From Hydrogenispora sp. (lineage in GTDB: Bacteria > Bacillota > UBA4882 > UBA10575): DNA of 44,160 nucleotides. The stretch covers positions 1 through 44,160 of the forward strand of contig DUQQ01000005.1 in the NCBI GenBank assembly GCA_012837705.1, read 5' to 3'. Position 1 is the stretch's first letter; every line of letters begins with the position of its first letter. Below the pieces are notes generated by a model. The model searched no databases and was not told where the DNA came from. It was given only the letters and a program-made list of their open reading frames with translations. Positions 15,168 to 26,428 of this stretch are shown piece by piece. A program made the translations under genes and the position numbers.

Positions 15168-15494
15168 GTGATAGGGGCAGTAATTCGCTTTGTGGTCTCC
15201 GCTTTAGTCTTGCTGTTCGTTGGCTTTCTTGTACCGGGGTTTAAAGTCGGCGGTTTTGTCGGGGCTTTAATCGCTGCCGTGGTGATCTCGGTCCTCGGTT
15301 ATATTGTTGAAAGCCTTTTTGGTCGGGAGGTCTCTCCCCAGGGACGAGGTTTGGTCGGCTTCTTAACCGCGGCGGTCGTCATTTATCTGACCCAGTTCAT
15401 CGTGGCCTCGGTGGAAGTCTCGATCATTGGTGCATTGTTGGCCTCAGCGGTCATCGGGGTGATTGATGCGATCGTCCCGACGGAATTGCGATAA
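15168..15494 (+). CDS. YvlD-like / phage-holin-4_2 family membrane protein
   Basis: A 108-residue, very hydrophobic protein with four predicted membrane helices and a short charged loop (about residues 52-60, GREVSPQGR). Pattern and length fit the widespread YvlD/DUF360-type family, whose function is unknown; the holin name is historical. GTG 15168 is preceded by GAAAGGGAGG at 7 nt and there is no better start. It lies 25 nt upstream of gpr and is probably co-transcribed with it. Confidence 0.8.
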   Translation: MIGAVIRFVVSALVLLFVGFLVPGFKVGGFVGALIAAVVISVLGYIVESLFGREVSPQGRGLVGFLTAAVVIYLTQFIVASVEVSIIGALLASAVIGVIDAIVPTELR

Positions 15495-15519
15495 ACGTGG
15501 GGCAAAGGAGGATGGTCTC

Positions 15520-16479
15520 ATGACATCAGCACCGATCCTGGGTGAGATCCGCACCGATCTGGCAATGGAGACCCACCAGTTTGTTGCGGGTATACGCGGT
15601 CCTTCCGTACCGGGGGTTGAATCTTACACCGAAGAAAAGGGGAAAACAAAGGTTACCCGGGTAATTATTCAAACCCCTGAAGCCGGTCAAGCTCTAGGAA
15701 AAAAGCCCGGCTACTATGTGACAGTGGAATCTCCAGCTTTACGCGGACGCGATAAGGATGATTTAGAAGAGGTTGCTCAGGAGATTGCGGCAGAACTCCG
15801 CACTTTTATTGCCGGTTTTAATCTCAACGACGAAGCGAGTTGCTTGGTCGTCGGCTTGGGAAACTGGAACGCCACTCCGGATGCCCTCGGCCCTAAAGTG
15901 GTGGAGAAGATCCTGGTGACCAGGCATCTCTTTGAGAGTACACCGCCGGAGAAAAGAGGAGGACTGCGTCCTGTCTGCGCCGTATCACCGGGCGTCTTAG
16001 GGATTACCGGAATCGAAACCAAAGAGATTGTCGCCGGGATTGTCCAGCGGGTCAAACCGGCCTTTATTCTGGTTATTGATGCCCTGGCCTCCCGGAGTAC
16101 GGAGCGGATGGGGAGTACGGTCCAGATCGCCAACACCGGAATCAATCCCGGATCCGGCGTTGGGAATCGCCGGTTAGGGCTCACTACTGAATCCTTAGGC
16201 GTACCGGTGATCGCGGTTGGAGTCCCCACGGTGGTCCAAGCGCGGACGATTATCCACGATGCGCTTGAACAAATTACCAGCTTAGGAGGGCCCTCAACCA
16301 AGGCTTTCCGGAAAGAGGTTATTGATCGGGTGCTCTCCCCCTATTTTCAGGATTTGATTGTTACCCCGAAGGAGATTGACGTGCTGATCGACGATATCTC
16401 CCGAGCGTTGGCGGGGGCAATCAATATTGCTTTGCACCCGGGGGTCACCGCCGAAGAGGTCTTTCGCTATCTCGAGTGA
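15520..16479 (+). CDS. gpr: Spore germination protease GPR
   Basis: Aspartate-type endopeptidase (family A25) that degrades small acid-soluble spore proteins early in germination; it is made as a zymogen in the forespore. The 319-residue protein has the family blocks RTDLAMETHQ at the N-terminus (zymogen-processing region), CLVVGLGNWNATPDALGP, TRHLF, SPGVLGITGIET, VIDALASRS, and the C-terminal VTPKEIDVLIDD. It is somewhat shorter than B. subtilis GPR (368), lacking an insertion before the C-terminal block. ATG 15520 is preceded by AAAGGAG; longer in-frame starts lie inside the upstream gene. Marks the organism as a spore former. Confidence 0.96.
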   Translation: MTSAPILGEIRTDLAMETHQFVAGIRGPSVPGVESYTEEKGKTKVTRVIIQTPEAGQALGKKPGYYVTVESPALRGRDKDDLEEVAQEIAAELRTFIAGFNLNDEASCLVVGLGNWNATPDALGPKVVEKILVTRHLFESTPPEKRGGLRPVCAVSPGVLGITGIETKEIVAGIVQRVKPAFILVIDALASRSTERMGSTVQIANTGINPGSGVGNRRLGLTTESLGVPVIAVGVPTVVQARTIIHDALEQITSLGGPSTKAFRKEVIDRVLSPYFQDLIVTPKEIDVLIDDISRALAGAINIALHPGVTAEEVFRYLE

Positions 16480-20496: not shown

Positions 20497-20569
20497 CTGG
20501 TTGGCATAATGTCATAACTTGTTTCCAATAAAGATCGTTTCATTATACATGAATTAAGGAGGAAAGGTG

Positions 20570-21016
20570 ATGACCAATAGTGTCTTATTGGGTGAGATGA
20601 GAGAAGCTTTAGTTACCCACTTGGTAGCGGTGGAAGAGCAAAGTGCCAGTTTTATTGAGGAATTTTTCCCTAATTCCGATCCGGAACGGGCGAAAGCCAA
20701 AGGAATAGTGGAGGAATACATCAAAAAGCTGGAAGGTCTCGTTCAAGAAGCACACTTGTGCAATAACCCGGGCGCTTTTCCTCTGGCGATCATCGGTAGC
20801 CGCGTTGAAGTTGAAGACCTTAATACCAACGAAAAGATGGCGTTCCAAATTATTTCTCCCCTCGGCGAATTGCCGGACGAAAACGGGATCTCTCCCCTTT
20901 CTCCAGTGGGAAAAGCCCTGTTTTTAAAGGCGATCGGGGAGGAAGTGAAGGTGGAAGCCCCGGGAGGGACCTTTCACTACCGGATCACCGCGATTCACTA
21001 CCCAGCGGTCGGATAA
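20570..21016 (+). CDS. GreA/GreB C-terminal-domain protein
   Basis: A 148-residue protein. The C-terminal half matches the Gre factor FKBP-like domain, with IIGSRVEVEDL, PLGELPDENG and the hallmark SPVGKALFLKAIGEEVKVEAPGG. The N-terminal half is helical and could form a hairpin, but lacks the GDLSENAEY-type acidic tip of transcript-cleavage factors. It may bind RNA polymerase near the secondary channel without stimulating cleavage, as Gfh1 and Rnk relatives do; this is inference. ATG 20570, 7 nt after AAGGAGG, was preferred over GTG 20567. Closed by its own terminator. Confidence 0.8.
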   Translation: MTNSVLLGEMREALVTHLVAVEEQSASFIEEFFPNSDPERAKAKGIVEEYIKKLEGLVQEAHLCNNPGAFPLAIIGSRVEVEDLNTNEKMAFQIISPLGELPDENGISPLSPVGKALFLKAIGEEVKVEAPGGTFHYRITAIHYPAVG

Positions 21017-21867: not shown

Positions 21868-21904
21868 ACCGAAAAGACCTGGCTTACGACCAGGTCTTTT
21901 CGGT
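21868..21904. terminator. Bidirectional hairpin terminator
   Basis: A perfect 15-bp inverted repeat (ACCGAAAAGACCTGG and its complement, 7-nt loop) lies between the convergent DUF554 gene and the Gln/Asn-rich gene. The T tract is within the stem on both strands. Confidence 0.8.
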
Positions 21905-21934: not shown

Positions 21935-22282
21935 TTATTGCTGCGACTGTTTTGACTGTTGTGACAGGACTTGGCTGAGCGGACCGGTGGCTTGGTCCAC
22001 TTCCAACTGGGCATTGCTTTGGTAATTCTGATTTTGATTAGTGTATTGATTCTGGAACTGGTTTTGGTTGGGAGCTTGCCCCTGGTATGGATTTTGATTG
22101 GCTTGCCCCATGCTGCCGATTTCAAGGCCGACCAGTTTTTGGGTAGCTAGGATACGGCTGATTTGCCCCGTTGACTGGGTTAGTTCACTTCCCATTTCGA
22201 ATTTTGTGTTATTTTGGTTTTGGGCCTGGACAAACTGTTGGTTGGCTTGTGGTCCCTGGTTTTGGGCGTTCTGTGTATGCAT
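21935..22282 (-). CDS. Gln/Asn-rich small protein, candidate gamma-type SASP-like spore protein
   Basis: A 115-residue hydrophilic protein with 31 Gln and 15 Asn (40 percent). Two non-repetitive segments stand out: residues 27-34 (KFEMGSEL), followed by TQSTGQISRIL, and residues 92-110, where EVDQATGPLSQVL repeats that pattern. FEMGSEL resembles the GPR cleavage site of SASPs (E-I/F-A/S-S/T-E type), and Gln/Asn richness is typical of gamma-type SASPs, which store amino acids in spores. ATG 22282 has AGGAGGTG 5 nt upstream, and a sigma-G-like promoter precedes it. No named family is recognised; a coat or other spore protein is also possible. Confidence 0.7.
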   Translation of the reverse strand: MHTQNAQNQGPQANQQFVQAQNQNNTKFEMGSELTQSTGQISRILATQKLVGLEIGSMGQANQNPYQGQAPNQNQFQNQYTNQNQNYQSNAQLEVDQATGPLSQVLSQQSKQSQQ

Positions 22283-22384
22283 CGTTTCACCTCCTAAGCG
22301 GCCAAAAATAGCACTGATTGTTCACCCAATTCTTATTTAAGGCCCCTTTCTGGCGTAGACGGTAGCCAGCGGGGCGACTACCTA

Positions 22385-22414
22385 TATTATGCGGTTAAAG
22401 CACGAAGATCATGA
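22385..22414 (-). promoter_or_regulatory. Sigma-G-like promoter of the Gln/Asn-rich gene
   Basis: On the minus strand TCATG (22414-22410), an 18-bp spacer, then CATAATA (22391-22385). The -10 is a full match to CATWHTA and the -35 matches GHATR at 4 of 5. The leader would be about 95 nt. Confidence 0.5.
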
Positions 22415-22453
22415 GTGCAGTTCTTACATGAAGAGGAAGAAGATAACGTCGCC

Positions 22454-22495: not shown

Positions 22496-22525
22496 GGTTA
22501 GTTTGCCAAGTTCCCGCCCATACTA
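22496..22525 (+). promoter_or_regulatory. Sigma-G-like promoter of the ger operon
   Basis: GGTTA (22496-22500), an 18-bp spacer, then CATACTA (22519-22525), a full match to the sigma-G -10 (CATWHTA) with a 3-of-5 -35. The start would fall just before the ribosome-binding site. gerA operons are sigma-G-dependent in Bacillus. Confidence 0.5.
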
Positions 22526-22547: not shown

Positions 22548-24137
22548 ATGTTCGAAATGCTTTGGCGGAAGTTACGTCTCGCCCATCAACGGAAAAAAAC
22601 ACCGGTTTCGCGGTCCCGCCGGGATTTAAGCCCGAACCTGGAGGCGAACCTGACTGCTTTTCAGGAAGAACTGGGGGCTAGTCCGGACCTGATCATCCGG
22701 CGTTTGACCTTGGGTCCCAGGCCGGGGAGTGCCGGGGCTTTAATTTACATCGACGGCCTCATCGATAAACAGGTCGTCAACCAGGATGTTTTATTGCCGC
22801 TCCTGAACGAAGGGAATTGGGGAAAAGGGCAAGACGTCACTGATTTACTGGGTTATGTCGCTCAAAGCATACTGGCTGTAGGTGAAATGCAAACGGAAAC
22901 CGAGCTTCGCCAAGTTGTCCAAGGACTTTTAGCCGGGGATACCATCCTCCTGGTTGACGGGCAAGCCGCCGCTTTGCTCCTTTCTACGAAAGGATGGGAT
23001 AAAAGGGCGATCCAAGAGCCGGAAGCGGAACAGATTATCCAGGGTCCCCATGAAGGGTTTACCGAAAACCTCCGGACCAACACCGCGCTGCTTCGGCGGA
23101 AGATCGCCACCGCCGGGCTCCATTTCGAAGAAATGAAGCTGGGGCAGCGGACGCAGACCGCCATCGCCATTGCTTACCTGAAAGGAGTAGTCAATGAAAA
23201 ACTGGTCGAAGAGGTGAGGCTTAGGTTAAAGCGGATTAATATCGATTATATCCTCGATGCCAATTATCTCCAGGAGTTTATTTCGGATGCCCCTTTTTCC
23301 CTCTTTCCGACGCTCACCTTTACGGAACGGCCGGATGTGGTCGCCGCCAAACTCCTGGAAGGGCGGGTCGCCATCTTTGTCGATGGAACACCCGTCGTCA
23401 ATACGGTTCCCGCTTTATTGGTAGAGAATTTCCAAAGTCCGGATGACTACAATTTCCCTTATTATTACGCCACGATGATCCGCTGGTTCCGTTATCTTTC
23501 ATTTTCCCTTGCTGTGTTGGCGCCGGCGCTTTTTGTTGCTTTAGGATCTTACCACCAAGAATTAATCCCGACGCCGCTGATGATCACGCTGAAAACGGCG
23601 ACGGAGGGAACTCCCTTCCCCTTGGCCATCGAAGTGGTCATGATGGGGCTGGTCTTTGAGATTCTTCGTGAAGCGGGGGTGCGACTGGCGAGACCGTTTG
23701 GACAGACCATCAGTATCGTGGGGGCGTTGGTTATTGGCGAGGCGGCGGTCACCGCCGGATTGGTGGGGGCGCCGACGATCATTGTGATCGCGTTGACCGC
23801 GATCACTACGTTTGTGGTCCCAGGGTTATTGGGGCCCGGGATCTTTCTCCGCTTAATCTATACGATCCTCGGGGGGGTGCTGGGGGCCTACGGTATTTTA
23901 ACCGGGATGTTATTTACCCTCCTCCATCTTGCTTCTTTACGTTCCTTCGGTGTGCCCTATTTAGCCCCGTTGGCACCGGTTATTCCGGCCGATCTGAAAG
24001 ATGTGTTGGTCCGGGCCCCAATTTGGGCGCTGCGCACCCGCCCCCGCTTAATCGGTTGGCCACGACCACAGCGCCAACCCTTTGGCTTCGCGGTGGACGA
24101 GGAAGAAAAGGGTGAGGATGGCCATGACAAAGGCTAA
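22548..24137 (+). CDS. Spore germinant receptor A subunit (GerA/GerKA family)
   Basis: A 529-residue subunit of an inner-spore-membrane receptor that senses nutrients. The soluble N-terminal half (about 1-285) contains the family GALIYIDGLIDKQVV block and ends with the EGRVAIFVDGTPVVNTVPALL motif; the C-terminal half has several membrane helices with RLARPFGQTISIVGALVIGE and the APIWALRTRPR end block. ATG 22548 follows AAGGGGG. It overlaps gerC by 14 nt. The germinant cannot be read from sequence. Confidence 0.95.
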   Translation: MFEMLWRKLRLAHQRKKTPVSRSRRDLSPNLEANLTAFQEELGASPDLIIRRLTLGPRPGSAGALIYIDGLIDKQVVNQDVLLPLLNEGNWGKGQDVTDLLGYVAQSILAVGEMQTETELRQVVQGLLAGDTILLVDGQAAALLLSTKGWDKRAIQEPEAEQIIQGPHEGFTENLRTNTALLRRKIATAGLHFEEMKLGQRTQTAIAIAYLKGVVNEKLVEEVRLRLKRINIDYILDANYLQEFISDAPFSLFPTLTFTERPDVVAAKLLEGRVAIFVDGTPVVNTVPALLVENFQSPDDYNFPYYYATMIRWFRYLSFSLAVLAPALFVALGSYHQELIPTPLMITLKTATEGTPFPLAIEVVMMGLVFEILREAGVRLARPFGQTISIVGALVIGEAAVTAGLVGAPTIIVIALTAITTFVVPGLLGPGIFLRLIYTILGGVLGAYGILTGMLFTLLHLASLRSFGVPYLAPLAPVIPADLKDVLVRAPIWALRTRPRLIGWPRPQRQPFGFAVDEEEKGEDGHDKG

Positions 24138-25317
24138 TGATGCAGGGCGCCGAAGGCTATGGTGGAAAAAAAGCCTCTGGCTACTACTCTTGTTCATCAT
24201 GGTTTTTACCAGTGGATGCTGGGACCGGCGGGAATTAGAGAATTTAGCGGTTGTGCTTGGGATGGGGCTTAACCATACGCCTGGGGGGGAGGGCTATGAA
24301 GTCTCTTTCCAAATTGTGCGGGCGGCGCAGATCAAAAGTCCCGGCGTGAGCAGTGGCGGTGGGGAAAAGATGAGACCTTTTTGGATCTTACGCTCCAGCG
24401 GACCGACGGTATTTGAGGCGATCCGAAATGCTACGTTTCAAAGCAGCCGCCGGCTTTTCTTATCCCATAGTCAGGTGCTTGTGATCAATGAAGCGGTGGC
24501 CCGGGAAGGGTTGACACCAGCCTTGGATTTTTTCATCCGCGATCATGAACCCCGGTTGAGCCTGTGGCTGCTCCTCACCGCTGAGGATCCGGTCCAAATC
24601 TTTGATGCTTCGGCTGGACTGGAAATGGTCTCGAGTCAGGCCATTTCTGACCTTTTACAACAGTATCATTTAACTTCGAAAATTAGGCCGGTTCGTCTGG
24701 CCGAATATGTTCGGCTGATAATGGCAAAAACGACGGCCAACACCTTACCTGTGATCAGAACAATCGAGAACGCGGGAAAGAAGGAGTTTTATTTCGAAGG
24801 GACTGGGGTGATCAAAGGCGATAAACTGGTCGGTTTTTTAGACCCGATAGAAACCCGGGGTTTACTATGGGTTCTTGGCGAGGTACAAGGGGGCGTGATC
24901 ACTTTTGATGTTCCCGGTAAAAAAGGTAAGGCCACTTTAGAGATCTTTACTTCTTCTTCCACGGTGACGGTTCAGGTGAAAGCCGATAAAATACACGTTA
25001 AAATTGAAGTGCAAGTCCGGTCTGGGCTTGGCAATCAAACCACCTACACCGACCTCTCCACTCCGGATCAGTTCAAAAAGCTGGAAACGCGGCAAGCAGA
25101 AGTCATCAAAGGGGAGATCGAAGCAGCCCTGGCGAAAGCACGGGAATATGGGGCGGATATTTTTGGCTTTGGCCAGCAGCTCTATGGTCACGATAACCGC
25201 GCCTGGCAGCGGCTGGCGGCGGACTGGGAGCGGCATTTTAGGGAGGCGACGGTCGAAATTAAAGTGAAGGCAGTCCTGGTAGAACTAGGCCTGACGACCA
25301 GGCCGGTGCTGGATTAA
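24124..25317 (+). CDS. Spore germinant receptor C subunit, lipoprotein (Ger(x)C family)
   Basis: A 397-residue lipoprotein. The N-terminus is basic, followed by a hydrophobic stretch and the lipobox FTSGC with the family hallmark CWDRRELENLAVVLGMG; the modified Cys anchors it to the spore inner membrane. The rest is the Ger(x)C three-domain extracellular fold, with SHSQVLVINEAVA and FDPIETRG-type blocks. Two ATGs are close: 24118 abuts the ribosome-binding site (GGTGAGG), 24124 is 6 nt away and was chosen. Gene order A-C-B matches many clostridial ger operons. Confidence 0.94.
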   Translation: MTKANDAGRRRLWWKKSLWLLLLFIMVFTSGCWDRRELENLAVVLGMGLNHTPGGEGYEVSFQIVRAAQIKSPGVSSGGGEKMRPFWILRSSGPTVFEAIRNATFQSSRRLFLSHSQVLVINEAVAREGLTPALDFFIRDHEPRLSLWLLLTAEDPVQIFDASAGLEMVSSQAISDLLQQYHLTSKIRPVRLAEYVRLIMAKTTANTLPVIRTIENAGKKEFYFEGTGVIKGDKLVGFLDPIETRGLLWVLGEVQGGVITFDVPGKKGKATLEIFTSSSTVTVQVKADKIHVKIEVQVRSGLGNQTTYTDLSTPDQFKKLETRQAEVIKGEIEAALAKAREYGADIFGFGQQLYGHDNRAWQRLAADWERHFREATVEIKVKAVLVELGLTTRPVLD

Positions 25318-25336
25318 GACCGAAGGAGGAGCCTGA

Positions 25337-26428
25337 ATGGATAAAGAGCGGATCTCACCCCGACAGTTAACCTTCCTGGTGATCAGTTTTACCATAGGCA
25401 GTTGGATCGTGCTGCCTTCGGGGATTGAAGCTTGGCAAAACCTGTGGTTGATTATGTTCTTATCGCTGGGACAAGGACTGGGGTTTGCCTATCTTGCCCT
25501 CCTGCTTTTCCGGCGCCATCCGGGGAAGACGCTATTTGAGATTCATGAAATCGTCTACGGACCGCTGTTCGGGAAACTCTTTTCCCTGTTGTTTTTGTGG
25601 TTTTTCTTGCAGACCGGTGCCGGCGCCTTGGCCGTCTTTGTTACTTTACTGAAGACCACCGTCTTTACAACCACCCCCGATCTGGCCCTTTTAATCCCCT
25701 GGGTCATTATTGTCGTTTACGGTTGTCGCCGCGGAATTGAAGTCATCGCCCGGAGCAACGAACCTTTGGTTCTGGCGACGATCGGGCTGATTATTGCCTC
25801 TGTCTTTCTAGTGCTTAATATCTTTGAAAGAGAGAACCTTTTGCCCCTATTTAACCTGCCCCTGTCGGCGGTGTTATGGAACTCCCTGGGGATTGCCGTT
25901 TTTCCTTTTGGTCAAAACGTGCTCTTTTTGATGCTTTTGCCCAAAGTTAACCAGCCTCAGAAGGTGATGGGTGCCGTCTTCCGCGGGATGGTATTGGCGG
26001 GCTTACTTTTGAGTTTACTCCAATTTTTAGCGGTCGGTGTTCTCGGGAAAGTCGGTGAACTTTTTGTCTTTCCTACCTATGAATTTTACCGGATGATCAA
26101 CATTGGCGAGGTCTTAACGCGGTTGGAACTGATCCCCCTCCTCAACTTTTTGACGATGGGTTTTATCAAAATCATGCTTTGTGTATATACCATGGCGGTG
26201 GGAACTGCCCAATTGTTTAACTTGCGTGCCGTTCAACCACTGTTCTTTCCGTTGGGGATTTTAATCTTACTTCTGACGCGGCAGATCTATCCCAGTATTA
26301 GCCTTCATTTACAATATATAAAGGACGTGCAACCTTATTTTGGCCTCTTTTTCTGTCTCCTCTTGCCACTGCTAACCTTAGGGATGTCGTTCCTCCGTGG
26401 CGGCCCGCAGCGGGAGATGGCTTCATGA
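25337..26428 (+). CDS. Spore germinant receptor B subunit (GerB family, APC-like)
   Basis: A 363-residue integral membrane protein of the APC superfamily with about ten hydrophobic helices. Family features are the opening ISPRQLTFLVISFTIG, the central ARSNEPLVLATIG block and FGQNVLFLMLLPKV. GerB subunits are thought to form the germinant-binding part of the receptor. ATG 25337 lies 20 nt after gerC with AAGGAGGAG upstream; its end overlaps the next small gene (ATGA). Confidence 0.94.
   Translation: MDKERISPRQLTFLVISFTIGSWIVLPSGIEAWQNLWLIMFLSLGQGLGFAYLALLLFRRHPGKTLFEIHEIVYGPLFGKLFSLLFLWFFLQTGAGALAVFVTLLKTTVFTTTPDLALLIPWVIIVVYGCRRGIEVIARSNEPLVLATIGLIIASVFLVLNIFERENLLPLFNLPLSAVLWNSLGIAVFPFGQNVLFLMLLPKVNQPQKVMGAVFRGMVLAGLLLSLLQFLAVGVLGKVGELFVFPTYEFYRMINIGEVLTRLELIPLLNFLTMGFIKIMLCVYTMAVGTAQLFNLRAVQPLFFPLGILILLLTRQIYPSISLHLQYIKDVQPYFGLFFCLLLPLLTLGMSFLRGGPQREMAS

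Follow-up and report, generated by a model that had tools for sequence, protein, structure and literature searches.

The window, a 44,160-nucleotide stretch of a Hydrogenispora sp. contig, carries a small minus-strand gene for a Gln/Asn-rich protein, together with a germination protease gene and a germinant receptor operon. The features to which we refer, in window coordinates, are as follows.

15463-16479, plus strand: gpr (TIGR01441), gene for the germination protease, with the actual start probably around 15520; family match, syntenic in relatives
21868-21904, minus strand: strong intrinsic terminator, 16-bp stem, 3' of the Gln/Asn-rich gene; from sequence
21935-22282, minus strand: Gln/Asn-rich protein, predicted SASP-like GPR substrate; open reading frame, 14-member alignment and dN/dS
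21962-21988, minus strand: repeat unit 2, TGPLSQVLS, residues 99-107, overlapped by predicted helix 101-112; alignment and model
22109-22126, minus strand: LEIGSM codons, residues 53-58, proposed GPR site 2; alignment
22145-22171, minus strand: repeat unit 1, TGQISRILA, residues 38-46, overlapped by predicted helix 40-51; alignment and model
22181-22204, minus strand: KFEMGSEL codons, residues 27-34, proposed GPR site 1 (E29-M30); family-wide best match and permutations
22290-22295, minus strand: ribosome-binding site AGGAGG; from sequence
22296-22384, minus strand: long leader, exceeding that of most relatives by about 80 nt and beginning with TAGGTAGTCGCCC; upstream comparison
22385-22391, minus strand: -10 element CATAATA, sigma-G type; anchored upstream alignment
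22410-22415, minus strand (approximate): weak -35-like element, AT at sigma-G spacing; alignment of 15 upstream regions
22548-26428, plus strand: germinant receptor operon of gerA-gerC-gerB type, with a separate -10 element, CATACTA, at 22519; family matches

The open reading frame at 21935-22282 encodes 115 amino acids from an ATG start that has AGGAGG a few bases 5' of it; the remainder of the interval that the preliminary description had given to the protein (22283-22414) is the leader and promoter of the gene. The product consists of exactly 40.0% Gln plus Asn, as had been stated, and the segments KFEMGSEL and LEIGSM and the internal TG-x-[IL]-S-x-[IV]-L repeat (TGQISRIL and TGPLSQVL) are present as described. 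Among the other open reading frames of at least 80 amino acids examined in the window and neighboring loci, homologs excepted, Gln plus Asn reaches at most 14.2%. The gene is single copy, with no paralog in its own genome. Thirteen further full-length homologs bring the family alignment to 14 members, which measure 86-175 amino acids, contain 27-45% Gln plus Asn, and have neither Cys nor Trp. E33, S37, G39, I41, S42, L45, E54, E94, S103 and L106 are invariant across the 14, and dN/dS between pairs is about 0.1, whether taken overall or within the conserved blocks; the frame is a real, conserved gene under purifying selection. An AlphaFold2 model from the 14 sequences has low confidence over most of the chain (mean pLDDT 49.7) and shows two short helices, located at the repeats, and the protein is predicted to be mostly disordered, as expected of a disordered storage protein.

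The 14-member profile matches 15 of the 29 genomes of the class, one of these matches (G004) being a truncated remnant. Among other genomes of the phylum, numbering about 370, the same kind of search returned a single marginal low-complexity match (E 0.005) inside an 811-codon frame. A scan with a profile of the f1 subset returned five loci, all from Bacillota metagenome-assembled genomes. L016, L017, L018 and similar weak matches were left out as low-complexity, one of them, L016, being an alpha/beta SASP whose tail is Gln-rich. As far as these profile searches reach, the family is confined to one uncultured Bacillota class. The gene is dispensable, because it has been cleanly lost in two congeners (G002 and G003) in which DUF554 and gerA are still in place, and is truncated in a third (G004; L007:1400-1660), which kept the promoter and the C-terminal part and lost the start and the N-terminal half. 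A similarly patchy occurrence has been reported for SASP genes (PMC3533761).

The nearby GPR on which the preliminary description relied is indeed encoded about 5.5 kb from the Gln/Asn-rich gene, and gpr lies about 6 kb away in most f1 loci that have both on the stretch; the conserved f1 stretch contains the gene together with gpr, murJ, a sigma factor, a GreA/B-like gene, DUF554 and the ger operon. The gene and the gerA operon are divergent, as described, with 266 bp between the gene and the start of the operon, but this arrangement is secondary, because a lemA-TPM-like gene pair that is missing from the window intervenes between the gene and gerA in relatives (L022-L026 and L030). The protein of GreA/GreB C-terminal type is encoded at 20567-21016 (plus strand); its orthologs (L023:6195 and L024:9249) have CATAATA 26-27 nt ahead of the start, and since they carry this box the GreA/GreB-type gene may be forespore-expressed too.

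The sigma-G-like promoter that had been proposed is upheld in its -10 element, but its -35 element is weaker than implied. In the alignment of 15 upstream regions, which is anchored on the -10, CATAATA is exact in 12, the positions ATA.TA are conserved in all 15, and the sigma-G form CATNNTA is found in 13; background upstream regions contain CATAATA in 4 of 197 cases. The gerA orthologs at the same loci carry CATA[AC]TA, and in B. subtilis germinant receptor operons depend on sigma-G. The -35-like element has its G one base further upstream than in the sigma-G consensus. The -10 box directly feeds the Gln/Asn-rich gene, because in most relatives it lies 24-27 nt before the start codon. The gene is likely expressed in the forespore, under sigma-F or sigma-G, as judged from this box. 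The major alpha/beta SASP genes of the class lack CATAATA and most of them have a sigma-F-like GGGAAAG[AC]TA box, located about 32 nt ahead of their starts (L058-L083 upstream regions).

The 13-mer TAGGTAGTCGCCC at 22372-22384 (minus strand) is followed by a GCTGGC-type hairpin. The genome contains two exact copies elsewhere (G000:C55:8440-8452 and G000:C73:1770-1782), near-matches are no more frequent than in the control, and the 13-mer is common to the leaders of close relatives and absent from others; it is possibly a small dispersed element. We also considered the leader as a riboswitch or other Rfam RNA and rejected this, as the matches are all sub-threshold and the fold has a z of -1.15.

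The GPR sites in the alpha/beta SASPs of the class read KYE[IV]A[NSQK]EL and those in the gamma SASPs of Bacilli GTEFASET. When a site profile made from both is scored against the columns of the family alignment, the KFEMGSEL columns are the best window, and none of 2000 column permutations is as good. The permutation result is 0.0015 when the two residues before the Glu are left out, 0.007 with the alpha/beta sites alone, and 0.03 with the gamma sites alone; for the site in the window protein itself, p is 0.001 against shuffles. The claimed likeness of KFEMGSEL to a GPR site, a matter of sequence similarity, would seem to hold for the family as a whole, but several members taken singly show it weakly (L005, L006, L010 and L015 have a shuffle p of 0.3-0.5). 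Counterparts of the segment are QQEIASEL in L014 and QFETASEL in L004, and the g3 members, three of which are without the first Glu, read STEVAKSP or QTEVAKSP instead. A profile of alpha/beta sites only gives low scores to true gamma sites and therefore cannot exclude the low-scoring members. At the second candidate site, an E[IF][GA] motif is found at E54 in 14 of 14 members.

The comparison with SASP families that had been suggested turned out negative. The window protein has no Pfam, NCBIfam or PDB match, searches of Pfam, NCBIfam, PHROGs and PDB returned nothing common to the family members, and no clear homology to a coat or phage protein was found (no coat family match, no shared PHROG). 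With the gamma SASP model PF04259 there is no match to the window protein at E <= 1, none to the other members and nothing above cut-off in the 29 class genomes, with a positive B. subtilis control; in the same search the model is found, besides B. subtilis, in only 6 of 398 phylum genomes. The alpha/beta model PF00269 is present in 29 of 29 class genomes, and the class therefore encodes spore-core SASPs; in the Pfam search it does not match the window protein or the other members. Profile-profile comparison of the family is not significant with either the gamma SASPs (probability below 1%) or the alpha/beta SASPs, although both best alignments land on GPR sites, with the LEIGSM region aligned in the gamma comparison. 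The gamma repeat around (F/Y)GTEFASET is not present, and only E-x-(A/G)-S-E is in common. The family does not widen the gamma-SASP group by homology, and the statement that the protein is a gamma-type SASP is not supported. Because neither PF04259 nor PF00269 matches the protein, we treat it as belonging to a separate family, which is better called a class-restricted, apparent functional analog of gamma SASPs.

The explanation that we consider best, and fairly probable, is that the product of the gene resides in the spore core and functions as a gamma-type SASP does. The developing forespore would make the protein from the sigma-G-type promoter and keep it in the dormant core, where it would form a disordered store that is rich in Gln and Asn and has neither Cys nor Trp. 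On germination GPR would cut it at KFE|MGSEL and probably at LE|IGSM, which are conserved motifs of the type Glu-hydrophobic-(Ala/Gly)-Ser, and its further degradation would provide amino acids. In favor of this explanation we count the purifying selection on the gene, the conserved -10 box and its counterpart at the gerA orthologs, the family-wide likeness to GPR sites, the composition and predicted disorder of the protein, the proximity of gpr in most f1 loci, and the presence of alpha/beta SASPs throughout the class. Expression time, core location, cleavage and storage role are what we infer here from sequence comparison. The earlier idea of a SASP cleaved by GPR survives insofar as a forespore-made, GPR-cleavable storage protein is the best reading, with E29-M30 as the best candidate site, but not as regards homology to a SASP family. 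We count against this explanation the weak site likeness of several members, the missing first Glu in three g3 proteins, the different promoter box of most alpha/beta SASP genes, the lack of significance in both profile comparisons, and the absence of the gene from half of the class genomes.

An alternative, which we regard as unlikely, is a forespore-made disordered core protein that gives protection from drying or crowding without being a substrate of GPR; the Glu motifs would then be part of the helical repeats. The motifs at E33 and E94 do open the repeat units, and a short predicted helix comes after each of them. The weak GPR likeness of several members agrees with this as well; however, the E54 motif is invariant although it is not part of either repeat, and the likeness of the N-terminal window to GPR sites exceeds chance across the family. 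It is distinctly improbable that the mother cell makes the protein as a Gln/Asn-rich component of the spore coat or exosporium. The low-complexity composition of the protein would be in keeping with such a role, and the box at five loci, CATAATATA, agrees with the sigma-K pattern CATANNNTA too, but this extension fails in the other loci, CATNNTA being the form that recurs, the gerA orthologs have the same box type, and the protein lacks Cys and matches no coat family.

That the protein is a true but highly diverged homolog of SspE, the gamma-type SASP, is very unlikely in view of the profile result, the different repeat, the absence of PF04259 matches above cut-off in the class genomes and the scarcity of PF04259 in the phylum, even though composition and small size are shared, GQFEFASMS in L015 resembles GQFGTEFASET, and the gamma GPR site is where the best profile alignment lies. 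It would surprise us as much if this were a vegetative or other non-sporulation protein placed by chance between gpr and the ger operon: the gene also adjoins housekeeping genes and, in relatives, the lemA-TPM pair, but its sporulation-type promoter box is conserved and every genome with the gene encodes SASPs.

For the gamma-SASP-like protein that we favor, an independent origin outside Bacilli is conceivable, and we hold it tentatively, at somewhat less than even chances: an unrelated class-restricted protein would have gained E-(hydrophobic)-(A/G)-S-E sites and become a GPR-mobilized reserve. GPR substrates would then evolve by convergence, and the view that only Bacilli have gamma-like SASPs would hold by homology only. 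SspE is a proposed amino acid reserve for outgrowth and was absent from all clostridial genomes examined in surveys (PMC3533761, PMC8452069), so that the role of gamma SASPs is vacant in clostridia. If our explanation is correct, the family shows how spore formers other than Bacilli may fill this role, provides a new substrate for testing the specificity of GPR, and suggests that SASPs are undercounted by homology searches alone.

Among known systems, the minor SASPs of Bacillales (SspH to SspP, Tlp) are likewise short spore-core proteins of narrow distribution, but the window protein matches no Pfam or NCBIfam SASP model. The resemblance to the alpha/beta-type SASPs (SspA/SspB, PF00269) lies in KFEMGSEL, which is similar to the GPR site KYEVANEL or KYEISKEL of the class; however, the window protein lacks the DNA-binding core GGxMVKRMIEAAE, the promoter box differs, and the alpha/beta SASPs are separate genes within the same genomes. 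With the gamma-type SASPs (SspE, PF04259) the family has in common small size, richness in Gln and Asn, the lack of Cys and Trp, disorder, patchy conservation, a proposed function as amino acid store, and the E-x-(A/G)-S-E motif, which resembles TEFASE. It differs from them in its repeat, E[LV]xQSxGxISxxL, in the second motif, E[IF][GA], in its occurrence in one uncultured Bacillota class, and in having no significant sequence or profile similarity to SspE.
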